Assembly (NCBI RefSeq): GCF_023015765.1
Contig: NZ_JALKAL010000001.1
Coordinates: forward strand, 605,478 to 669,477
Origin: Ornithinimicrobium sp. F0845
GTDB lineage: Bacteria > Actinomycetota > Actinomycetes > Actinomycetales > Dermatophilaceae
DNA: 64,000 nucleotides
Direction of reading: 5' to 3'
The notes under the pieces are model-generated. The model was not told the DNA's origin, ran no database searches, and saw nothing but the letters and a program-made list of their open reading frames with translations. Of this stretch, positions 5,626-55,937 are shown in pieces (position 1 is the first letter of the stretch; every line of letters starts with the position of its first letter). A program made the position numbers and the translations under genes.

Positions 5626-5684
5626 GGCGGACAAAACTTCCCCAAGAATGCGGGGGAGGCGGACAAAACCTGCCCAAGAATTGG
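5626..5684 (-). repeat. Dispersed paired repeat, copy 1 (two units, 32-nt period)
   Basis: Two near-identical units start at 5626 and 5658, each reading GGCGGACAAAACYTSCCC followed by AAGAAT. The same two-unit structure with the same 32-nt period is found, inverted relative to the window, at 55574-55634 inside rimI. This copy directly abuts the pepP stop codon, and both copies have the same orientation relative to the transcript they touch. No gene is visible in the remaining 5532-5625. Confidence 0.85.
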
Positions 5685-7178
5685 TTAGCGACGGCCGCCC
5701 GCCTGGACCCAGGCCTCGACGTCGTCGGCGGAGCGGGGGAGCGCGGCCGAGAGGTTGCGGCAGCCGTCCTGCGTGATGACGACGTCGTCCTCGATGCGCA
5801 CGCCGATGCCGCGGAACTCCTCGGGCACGAGCAGGTCGTCGGCCTTGAAGTAGAGGCCCGGCTCGACGGTGAGGACCATGCCGGGTTGCAGCTCGGCGTC
5901 CATGTAGTCCTCGCGCAGCGCCAGGGCGCAGTCGTGCACGTCGAGGCCGAGGTGGTGGCTGGTGCCGTGCACCATCCAGCGCCGGTGCAGCTGGCCGTGC
6001 TCGGGGTCCAGCGTGCTCTCGACCGTCACACCCTCGGGCAGCAGGCCCCACTCGAAGAGCCTGGTCGCGATCACCCTGATCGCCGCGGCGTGGATGTCGC
6101 TGAACTTGTTGCCGGGGCGGGCCGCTGCGAGCCCGGCCTCCTGCGCCTCCAGGACGGCCTCGTAGACCGTGCGCTGGGTCTCGGTGAACGTGCCGTTGAC
6201 CGGGACGGTGCGGGTCACGTCGGCGGTGAACAGCGAGTCCACCTCCACGCCGGCGTCGAGGAGCAGGAGCTCGCCGTCGCGGACCTCGCCGGTGTTGCGG
6301 ATCCAGTGCAGCGTCGTCGCGTGGTCACCCGCGGCGCAGATCGAGTCGTAGCCGACGCCGTTGCCGGCGTGCCGGGCGTGCAGCCCGAAGACCCCCTCCA
6401 CCCAGCGCTCGCCACGCCCACGCCGCACCGCCTCCGGCAGCTCGGCGACGACGGCGTCGAAGGCCTCCGCCGTGGCGTCGCACGCCAGCTGCATCTGGTC
6501 GACCTCCCACTCGTCCTTGACCAGGCGCAGCGTGGACAGGAAGCGGGAGAGCTCCACGTCGGCCTCGGCCGCGGTCTCCGCCGAGTGCTCGGCGGACTGG
6601 GACCGTGCGGTCTCCACGACCTCGGCCACCTCCGCGTCCGCCTCACGCACAACGCGGACCGACACCGTCCCGACGTCCTTGGCCACCGCGTCCGGCAGCT
6701 CGGACAGGTCCCGGGTCGCGATCCCCAGCTCGGCGGCCATCGCCGCCAGCGTGGGGCGACGGCCGACCCAGAACTCGCCGACCCGGGCGTCGGCGAAGAA
6801 CTCCTCGGTGTCGCGACCCGCCAGCGGGCGGAAGTAGAGCACCGCCTCGTGCCCGCCGTCCTCGAGCGGGTCCAGCACCAGCACCGCGTCGGGCTCCCGG
6901 TCCGAGCCCAGGCCGGTCAGGTGCGCGAAGGCGGTGTGCGGCCGGAAGACGTAGTCCGTGTCGTTGCTGCGGACCTTCAGGCCGCCAGCCGGGACCACGA
7001 CCCGTTCCCCCGGGAAGGCCGCGGAGACAGCCTCCCGGCGCGCTGCGGCATACTGCGCCGCATCGGTCTGCTCGGGGAGGGACTCGTCGTGGTCCGCCCA
7101 CCCCTTGGCGATGAACGCGCGGAACTCGGGGCTGTTGGGGCGGCTACGGTGCTCGGCCTTGTGCTGCTTCTCACTCAC
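5685..7178 (-). CDS. pepP: Xaa-Pro aminopeptidase, M24B family (497 aa)
   Basis: The N-terminal creatinase-like domain (FAHLTGLGSDREPDAVLVL) is followed by the pita-bread catalytic domain. The two-metal ligands are visible: LLLDAGVEVDSLFTADVTRT supplies both aspartates, HGTSHHLGLDVHD the histidine, TVEPGLYF a glutamate and GVRIEDDVVI the last glutamate. It removes N-terminal residues preceding proline in the cytosol. Length is normal for the family. The start is GTG 7178 with GAGGA upstream; it is divergent from the exporter gene at 7238. The dispersed repeat begins immediately after the TAA stop. Confidence 0.93.
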   Translation of the reverse strand: MSEKQHKAEHRSRPNSPEFRAFIAKGWADHDESLPEQTDAAQYAAARREAVSAAFPGERVVVPAGGLKVRSNDTDYVFRPHTAFAHLTGLGSDREPDAVLVLDPLEDGGHEAVLYFRPLAGRDTEEFFADARVGEFWVGRRPTLAAMAAELGIATRDLSELPDAVAKDVGTVSVRVVREADAEVAEVVETARSQSAEHSAETAAEADVELSRFLSTLRLVKDEWEVDQMQLACDATAEAFDAVVAELPEAVRRGRGERWVEGVFGLHARHAGNGVGYDSICAAGDHATTLHWIRNTGEVRDGELLLLDAGVEVDSLFTADVTRTVPVNGTFTETQRTVYEAVLEAQEAGLAAARPGNKFSDIHAAAIRVIATRLFEWGLLPEGVTVESTLDPEHGQLHRRWMVHGTSHHLGLDVHDCALALREDYMDAELQPGMVLTVEPGLYFKADDLLVPEEFRGIGVRIEDDVVITQDGCRNLSAALPRSADDVEAWVQAGGRR

Positions 7179-38005: not shown

Positions 38006-38082
38006 CGCGGGGTGGAGCAGTTCGGTAGCTCGCCGGGCTCATAACCCGGAGGTCGCAGGTTCAAATCCTGCCCCCGCTACCA
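38006..38082 (+). tRNA. Initiator tRNA-fMet (anticodon CAT)
   Basis: The 77-nt cloverleaf starts CGCGGGG and ends CCCCGCTACCA with CCA encoded. The first base pair (C1-U72) is mismatched and the anticodon stem carries GGG/CCC next to the loop CTCATAA, both hallmarks of the initiator tRNA. The D-loop (AGCAGTTCGGTAGCT) and T-loop (GGTTCAAATCC) are normal. Confidence 0.95.
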
Positions 38083-43863: not shown

Positions 43864-43876
43864 CGGCACCACGCTA
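43864..43876 (-). promoter_or_regulatory. Leaderless -10 element of hisN
   Basis: TAGCGT (43876-43871), 7 nt before the ATG at 43863. Confidence 0.5.
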
Positions 43877-43910
43877 GTGCCTCAGGCCCCCAGAGCCCGG
43901 GAGGCGCTGG

Positions 43911-54720: not shown

Positions 54721-55413
54721 GTGCTGCTCGCCCTCGACACCGCCACCGGAGCCATCGGAGCCGCCGTCCTCGACGGTGACCGGGTGCTGTCCGAGGTGAC
54801 GCACCAGGACTCGCGGCGCCACGGTGAGCTTCTCGCGCCCGCGATGGAGCAGGCGCTGGCGGGGGCGGGGATCGGGGTCGGCGACCTCACGGCGGTGGCG
54901 GTCGGGGTCGGGCCAGGTCCGTTCACCGGGTTGCGGGTCGGCATCGTCACCGGGCTCGTGCTGGGGCAGGTGCGCGGCATCCCGGTGCACGGCATCTGCT
55001 CGCTGGACGCCCTGGCAGAGCAGGCGGTGGTCGAACAGGTCGTGGACGACCGGTTCCTGGTCGCCACGGACGCCCGCCGCAAGGAGGTCTACTGGGCGGA
55101 GTATGCCGTGGAGCACGGCCACCCCCGGCGCACCGGCGGCCCCGGGGTCGCCCACGCGGCCGACCTTCCCGAGGCCGCTCGAGCGCTCCCGGCGGTCGGG
55201 CGCGGACCGCTCCTCTATGACGCCCTCACCCGGGCCGGGGGCGACGCACCGGTCGATGTGCGTCCCGGGCTGCTCGGGCTCGTCGCCCACCGAGCCCTCG
55301 CCGCCGGCGAGGTGCAGGGGGCGGTGGCGGACGGCATACTGCTGGCTCCCGAGCCCCTGTATCTGCGGCGCCCGGACGCGGCCGTGCCCGGCCCGCTGAA
55401 GACGGTCCCGTGA
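54721..55413 (+). CDS. tsaB: tRNA t6A synthesis scaffold protein TsaB (230 aa)
   Basis: An ASKHA-fold protein starting LLALDTATGAIGAAVL, with DSRRHGELLAPAM and the family signature VGVGPGPFTGLRVGIVTGLVLG near residue 60. DARRKEVYWAEY follows. TsaB supports TsaD in the transfer of threonylcarbamoyl to A37 of ANN-decoding tRNAs. It is the first gene of tsaB-rimI-tsaD-nagZ, all overlapping, and overlaps rimI as GTGA. The -10 just upstream sets the GTG start. Confidence 0.93.
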   Translation: MLLALDTATGAIGAAVLDGDRVLSEVTHQDSRRHGELLAPAMEQALAGAGIGVGDLTAVAVGVGPGPFTGLRVGIVTGLVLGQVRGIPVHGICSLDALAEQAVVEQVVDDRFLVATDARRKEVYWAEYAVEHGHPRRTGGPGVAHAADLPEAARALPAVGRGPLLYDALTRAGGDAPVDVRPGLLGLVAHRALAAGEVQGAVADGILLAPEPLYLRRPDAAVPGPLKTVP

Positions 55414-55937
55414 GCGGCGGGCACACCGGCACCCGGCTGCGGGCGATGCGGTGGCAGGACCTGCCCGAGGTGCAACGGATCGAGACGGCAGCCTTCCCCG
55501 ACGACGCGTGGTCCCCGGCCAGCTTCTGGGGCGAGCTCGCGGCGCGCCCGCGGCGTGACTACGTCGTCCTCCACCCCATTCTTGGGGAGGTTTTGCACGC
55601 CCATCACGCCTTTTTGGGGAAGTTTTGTCCGCCCGAGCCGCTGATGGGCTACGCCGGTCTCGACCTGGCGGGGGAGACGGCCGACGTGATGACCATCGCC
55701 GTCGACCCCGCGCATCGCGGCGAGGGACACGGGGTGCACCTGCTCGAGGCCCTGCTGGACCGGGCCGAGGCCGCTGGTGCGTCGCAGGTGATGCTGGAGG
55801 TGCGGGCGGACAACGAGGCGGCGATCGGTCTCTACTCCCGCTACGGTTTCGCGGAGCTGCACCGGCGCCGGGGCTACTACCAGCCGGGGTCCGTGGACGC
55901 GCTGATCATGCGCAGAGAGGTGGGTCACCGTGACTGA
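55410..55937 (+). CDS. rimI: Ribosomal-protein S18 N-acetyltransferase RimI with inserted repeat (175 aa)
   Basis: The GNAT fold is intact: [22 protein letters not shown], then the acetyl-CoA loop [25 protein letters not shown] and [26 protein letters not shown]. Between the strands RDYVV and LMGYAGL an insert of about 21 residues ([19 protein letters not shown] is its core, residues 57-75) is encoded by a dispersed repeat. The insert lies in a loop and keeps the frame, so the enzyme may still work. RimI acetylates the N-terminus of S18 in some bacteria. GTG 55410 overlaps tsaB; the end overlaps tsaD by 8 nt. Confidence 0.9.
55574..55634 (+). repeat. Dispersed paired repeat, copy 2, in frame inside rimI
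   Basis: Two units with a 32-nt period (reverse strand starts near 55633 and 55601) match the two units at 5626-5684. On the rimI sense strand they read ATTCTTGGGGAGGTTTTG and TTTTTGGGGAAGTTTTGTCC. The total length keeps the rimI frame open. Confidence 0.87.

Follow-up and report, generated by a model that had tools for sequence, protein, structure and literature searches.

The window, by which we mean the whole 64,000-nucleotide stretch of DNA analysed here, contains two copies of a short repeat made of two units. One lies within rimI, a plus-strand ORF of 175 amino acids that codes for a GNAT acetyltransferase (55410–55937), in which a unit of ~23 nt is present twice with a period of 32 nt. 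This element occupies 55575–55631 (plus strand; match G000:C1:661052-661108 to R1, the family model described below) and residues 56–75 of the product. Its unit 1 is at 55578–55600 (weight-matrix score 36.7) and its unit 2, 32 nt further on, at 55610–55632 (score 32.7), both on the plus strand, in agreement with the original prediction of an in-frame two-unit repeat in this gene. The other copy, at 5628–5684 on the minus strand (R1 match G000:C1:611105-611161), abuts the TAA stop of a 497-codon minus-strand ORF (5685–7178), for which we keep the earlier name pepP. The same pair of units had been placed directly after this stop, and weight-matrix matches at 5659–5681 and 5627–5649 (minus strand) put it immediately past the TAA. 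The repeat pattern has 4 matches in the window as against 0 in 100 shuffles, and the unit weight matrix gives no third copy there, with four units scoring 29.9–36.7 and the next best place 10.6. An Rfam search of the window returned nothing above the gathering score at the element; its sole match is a tRNA gene at 38006–38079 on the plus strand. The short gap between two minus-strand ORFs at 43873–43910 is free of the element in this genome (G000), and the orthologous gap in G006, another genome of the genus, holds a two-unit element (G006 1262531-1262586).

The extra segment is real. The rimI of genome G015 has 2 nt where that of G000 has 59 nt, a difference of +57 nt or 19 codons, which makes the earlier estimate of about 21 residues slightly high. 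There is no clear target duplication at the rimI element when compared with this G015 site (59 versus 2 nt), which may not itself be ancestral. Relatives do lack the insert: its residues are absent from 18 of 18 other RimI sequences (an aligned subset of 29 other loci), and tblastn alignments have gaps at its position in all 29, with some loops only ~8–13 residues shorter. Alignments of the rimI product to PDB entries start downstream of the insert. All three sense frames of the rimI copy are open, and one antisense frame contains a stop. The absence of stops from these sense frames, together with a net gain in length divisible by three, probably explains why the copy is tolerated. An insertion facing empty sites in other RimI genes is also what would be expected of selfish, non-autonomous mobile DNA (MITE-like or REP-like) without host function, moved by a lost or unseen transposase that prefers gene ends, with re-insertion or gene conversion keeping its consensus uniform. 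This is the main rival to the reading proposed below, and we return to it where further evidence bears on it.

The element belongs to a large family. In G000, TTGGGGAGGTTTTG has 94 matches at ≤2 mismatches versus 13 for the reversed control, and for GTAGTGG, a second type of core, 53 matches compare with 0 in the control. R1, a sequence-only model built from 25 elements, has at least 118 matches in G000, which merge into 106 arrays, so that the further genomic copies expected from the original prediction exist in abundance. All R1 counts are lower bounds, with 150 candidates scored per genome (18 per genome in the order-wide set). Among 31 genomes of the genus, seven have between at least 44 and at least 132 matches, two have one and 22 have none at 150 candidates scored each; besides G000, the carriers are G006 (at least 121), G015 (at least 75), G010 (at least 98), G008 (at least 44), G019 (at least 44) and G023 (at least 132). 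In an order-wide sample of 297 genomes, which contained just one other member of the genus, only G000 matched under stricter filters and with 18 candidates scored per genome. A tree of TsaB, RimI and TsaD from 23 genomes, a set in which the carriers G019 and G023 are absent, places the five carriers G000, G006, G008, G010 and G015 in one clade with a support of 1.0. The repeat family is thus restricted to some species of the genus and is clade-specific. Judged by paper titles in the open-licence literature, neither a search for such a repeat family in actinobacteria nor one made with the repeat sequences returned anything on the subject, and on these searches the family appears undescribed.

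The core of the element is a block of ~57 nt composed of a direct pair of units with a 32-nt spacing, of the form CC(A/C)ATTyT-core-GGTTT(T/C)G... In 33 two-unit elements this block is sharply bounded, with information reaching background no more than a few bases away from the leading CC and the trailing TACGC. The period of 32 nt corresponds to about three helical turns and is exact in 90 of 96 first pairs versus 17 of 30 later pairs (99 arrays, p=8e-6). Units above background are found at the first place in 99 of the 106 arrays and at the second in 101; 28 arrays have a third such unit and 6 a fourth. Where arrays have three units (n=26), the third has a mean score of 19.0 versus 30.7. Units to the left of the first were not seen, but the rule for picking the first unit makes this inevitable. 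Sequence and spacing are preserved in the leftmost two units, and extra units to the right decay; preservation confined to this pair speaks against selfish DNA. One fixed end with a varying number of units at the other could also be the mark of a resident reverse transcriptase that spread the copies. However, PF00078 occurs in 7 of the 31 genomes of the genus, and of the seven carriers G006 alone has it; with six of seven carriers lacking it, this explanation is not supported and we regard it as hardly credible.

Units of one element resemble each other (0.797) more than shuffled partners do (0.663), which points to local duplication or conversion, besides selection. The core itself varies (GGGGAGG, GTAGTGG, ATAGTGG and GCAGGGG), and 7 of 75 elements mix unit types, a TAG core being followed by a CAG core; subfamilies mixed in this way are among the observations in favour of selfish DNA. 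Coding potential differs between the types. For the GGGGAGG type, none of the six frames is interrupted in the consensus or in 18 of 32 copies. All 20 TAG-type copies examined contain stops in two sense frames, and 16 of these 20 have no stop in any of the three antisense frames. Openness in all six frames was considered as a general rule and rejected: it fails for the rimI copy and holds for 0 of 20 TAG-type copies.

A conserved RNA structure shared by the copies, which had been raised as a possibility at the outset, was not found. RNAalifold gave 0 conserved pairs on 25 elements, and the folding energies of single elements resemble those of shuffles on both strands, with mean z values (sense and antisense) of -0.08 and -0.15 in G000 (n=75) and 0.41 and 0.04 in G006 (n=40); values below -2 were reached by 5 and 5 elements in G000 and by 1 and 0 in G006. 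The best scanned stems pair slightly above shuffled partners (0.727 versus 0.700, sd 0.010; 0.691 versus 0.661, sd 0.011), an excess of two to three sd that we attribute to selecting the top stems from a large number. We therefore reject a conserved RNA or hairpin. This bears directly on the proposal that the elements are REP sequences served by a RAYT transposase. Their copy number, their place near 3' ends and their occasional intragenic copies do resemble REPs as described in the available part of PMC3733652. However, the hairpin is lacking, and the Y1 transposase domain Y1_Tnp (PF01797) was detected in 0 of 31 genus genomes as compared with 5 of 14 known genomes used as a control. As two defining features of that system are missing, we reject it, leaving it only the slimmest of chances. 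The absence of Y1, the sole transposase family searched, also weakens the case for selfish DNA.

The position of the arrays relative to genes, as called by a home-made caller trained on the same segments, is polar. Of the 106 arrays in G000, 69 are intergenic, 24 lie within a called ORF and 13 overlap one in part; in some of the latter, a gene reads into the element and terminates at a stop within it. In 61 of the 69 intergenic arrays the left end is the end nearer to a gene (p=3e-11), at a median distance of 12 nt compared with 89 nt for the right end. Left ends lie within 5 nt of a gene in 26 cases and within 30 nt in 53, as against 2 and 10 for right ends. The neighbours of left ends within 30 nt are stops in 38 arrays, which are then in sense orientation, and starts in 15, which are then antisense; near starts, by our reading of the sequences, the element mostly sits just outside the ribosome-binding site. 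Such anchoring could reflect the insertion mechanism. Abutting stops are TAA in 11 of 32 cases compared with 6 of 228 other stops (p=1.3e-7), as if insertion had made or chosen the stop, which again would suit selfish DNA. In G006 no replichore bias is evident (R, 32 minus and 21 plus; L, 20 minus and 19 plus) for the 92 of 121 matches counted with the origin assumed at base 1.

The abundance of sense copies shortly after stops (38 of 106 arrays within 30 nt, with 26 of 69 intergenic left ends no more than 5 nt from a gene) would be consistent with a 3'-end element acting at the RNA level, as a terminator, an mRNA stabiliser or a cause of ribosome stalling. Stop-proximal REPs of E. coli are reported to stall ribosomes in the portion of PMC12306157 that was available. 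Against this stand the missing conserved structure, the shuffle-like folding energies and the 15 arrays located antisense just outside a start codon, and we judge such a role improbable. That the arrays occur at either gene edge and on either strand fits a role at the DNA level instead.

At some loci, elements occur as inward-facing pairs with each left end at or close to a gene edge. Those at G000 C15:5209-5331 (L072) and G006 1152015-1152172 (L131) occupy most or all of the intergenic gap; in the latter, two genes converge, one element follows each stop and the gap is filled. These pairs resemble inverted-repeat ends, a further point for selfish DNA. One gene end bears an element in G015 (L166), in G006 (L297) and in G000 (G000:C56:153857, L089), with three different cores, and in the G000 and G006 cases the gene ends inside the element. 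With stops in two of their three sense frames (20 of 20), TAG-type copies can supply a stop codon to a gene that reads in; one such case is G000:C1:566083-566171 (L160 / L249).

Many elements have been inherited in place. For 22 of 41 G006 elements, a sample biased upwards in that it combines the 30 best with 11 found in stretches around expected positions, G000 has an element at the same place and in the same orientation. The flanks of these shared elements align at ~73–91%. Orthologous pairs (n=21, omitting the one-unit copy C10:24716) are 0.702 identical, just slightly more than the 0.662 of unmatched cross-species pairs (permutation p=0.0008), as compared with identities between elements within a species of 0.664 in G000 and 0.708 in G006. 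At the 21 shared places, TTTTG outnumbers TTTCG by 33:2 in G000, as compared with a ratio of 15:25 in G006 (p=1.6e-7). Small samples from the other carriers show TTTCG in 6 of 6 cases in G010 and 8 of 12 in G015, TTCGG in 6 of 9 in G019, TTTCG and TTCGG in 3 of 8 each in G008, and TTTCG and TTTTG in 5 of 11 each in G023. Shared places combined with a differing consensus indicate that position is inherited, whereas sequence follows a species-wide preference.

Of the 106 arrays in G000, 75 were compared for sequence identity, and the best pair is only 93% identical and the mean identity 65%, with no sign of a recent burst. A mobile or amplified short element had been predicted; amplification and tolerance inside genes stand, whereas near-identical copies are absent among the 75 compared and many copies have stayed where they were inherited. 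Both this divergence and the 22 of 41 positions common to G006 and G000 tell against selfish DNA. Weighing these points against the rimI insertion, the mixed unit types, the inward-facing pairs and the TAA excess, we consider selfish DNA possible, if somewhat doubtful.

Copies within genes were examined separately. Twelve of the 24 arrays in called ORFs lie more than 60 nt from both ends, and nine of these were accepted as in-frame: those in rimI, MenD, a MaoC-like dehydratase, acetoacetyl-CoA synthetase (AACS), an FdhB-like ferredoxin protein, a maltokinase-GlgB protein, a FAD oxidase, YggS and a GMC oxidase. Gene identities were assigned by Pfam, and for the FdhB-like protein, maltokinase, FAD oxidase and YggS partly by reading and PDB matches. 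Not counted were C12:28326 (a marginal model match, E 0.003), C6:35906 (a doubtful start codon) and C57:196751 (degenerate). Two of the nine are in sense orientation (rimI and MenD) and seven are antisense, five of which have in common a peptide of the type QNxxxNAxxxxKTxxKIG.

Several of these segments recur between species. In G006 the segment occupies the corresponding position in MenD, the MaoC-like dehydratase, the FAD oxidase and GlgB, and partly in FdhB, where the alignment spans the element only in part. G019 (L369) has it at the same place in GlgB and G010 (L368) in YggS, at which place the G006 YggS carries a short, unlike segment; orthologues of AACS, the GMC oxidase and an MFS protein were not found among the carrier loci compared. 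The insert breaks the alignment to E. coli YggS. AACS and MenD exceed their PDB relatives by a net ~13 and ~9 residues, respectively, less than the element's 20. For the GMC oxidase the PDB alignment starts at residue 244 and for the FAD oxidase it covers residues 75–203, leaving both inserts outside this test. Maltokinase-like and GlgB sequences share a single open frame in which the element lies at the point where they meet (L321:2-2101, minus strand), and likewise in G006 (L293) and G019 (L369); the element may act there as a linker of a fused protein.

We propose that the family is an interspersed repeat of the REP or RPE kind, mostly old and inherited in place, that is kept as paired sites for a putative DNA-binding factor, and that rimI received its copy by a later insertion; we put the probability of this reading at about one half. 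Some activity would have spread the family long ago, most copies now being passed on where they are, and a later copy would have landed in rimI. The pair of units would form a double binding site for a putative trans-acting DNA-binding protein. Paired binding sites are favoured by the three-turn spacing, the decay of extra units, the occurrence at either edge of genes and on either strand, the lack of structure and the species-wide preferences. On the other side, core variation is wide for the site of one protein, and the species difference in consensus could stem from gene conversion rather than from a coevolving protein. Neither a binding protein nor a dispersal enzyme was found among Y1 transposases, reverse transcriptases and the genes beside seven large arrays; these genes, their sequences judged by eye, are housekeeping-like, with nothing suggestive of a trans factor.

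A bolder version of the paired-site reading, which we advance tentatively and think rather unlikely, is a clade-specific, genome-wide marking of gene edges, in which a protein of evolving specificity would bind sites paired three turns apart, the sites would track this specificity in each species, and this DNA would also serve as a source of new in-frame protein segments. The marks would then be set immediately at stops or a little outside ribosome-binding sites. Two questions become testable with this family: how such repeats can stay uniform yet change in sequence while their places are fixed, and how frequently repeats feed new protein segments in bacteria beyond Rickettsia-like symbionts.

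Among known systems, the closest precedents for in-frame repeats, by analogy, are RPEs and intragenic REPs. RPEs are described, in the part of PMC10969869 that was available, as short repeats lying in frame in conserved protein genes, tolerated there and common to several species; as first reported they are palindromic and ~150 bp long (PMC10969869). The original prediction likened the rimI repeat to them. The likeness holds for the in-frame copies in conserved protein genes (nine accepted), some of which are shared between species. It does not extend to structure, given the absence of both a palindrome or hairpin and conserved RNA structure, nor to the arrangement as two direct units 32 nt apart, the mostly intergenic location (69 of 106 arrays) with one end anchored to gene edges, or the actinobacterial host. 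REPs of the GTAG and CGTC families, which occur with RAYT, are reported in high copy number near the 3' ends of genes and sometimes within genes, coding for 20–30 amino acids (PMC3733652, available in part). The present elements are REP-like in their high copy number (106 arrays), with 69 intergenic and 38 within 30 nt of a stop, and unlike REPs with RAYT in having no hairpin, in their head-to-tail pairs at a fixed 32-nt period and in a genus without Y1 transposase. MIRUs, also actinobacterial, are presented in the accessible section of PMC12548453 as short, apparently mobile repeats that occupy gene junctions and hardly damage the gene; their reported insertion site is the start codon, with an ORF coupled at -4 nt (PMC12548453), whereas the 32-nt units described here are next to stops or outside ribosome-binding sites. 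MITEs such as RUP, NEMIS and ERIC are, as portrayed in the same portion of PMC10969869, short, dispersed and sometimes fused in frame to ORFs, all of which applies here. In contrast to MITEs, solitary elements have no terminal inverted repeats, the common element being a direct two-unit repeat, and inward-facing pairs are confined to some loci. Set beside these systems, the family is a hairpin-less relative in kind of REPs and RPEs without the known transposase, gene-polar, conserved in place, different in consensus from species to species and present in frame in several enzyme genes.
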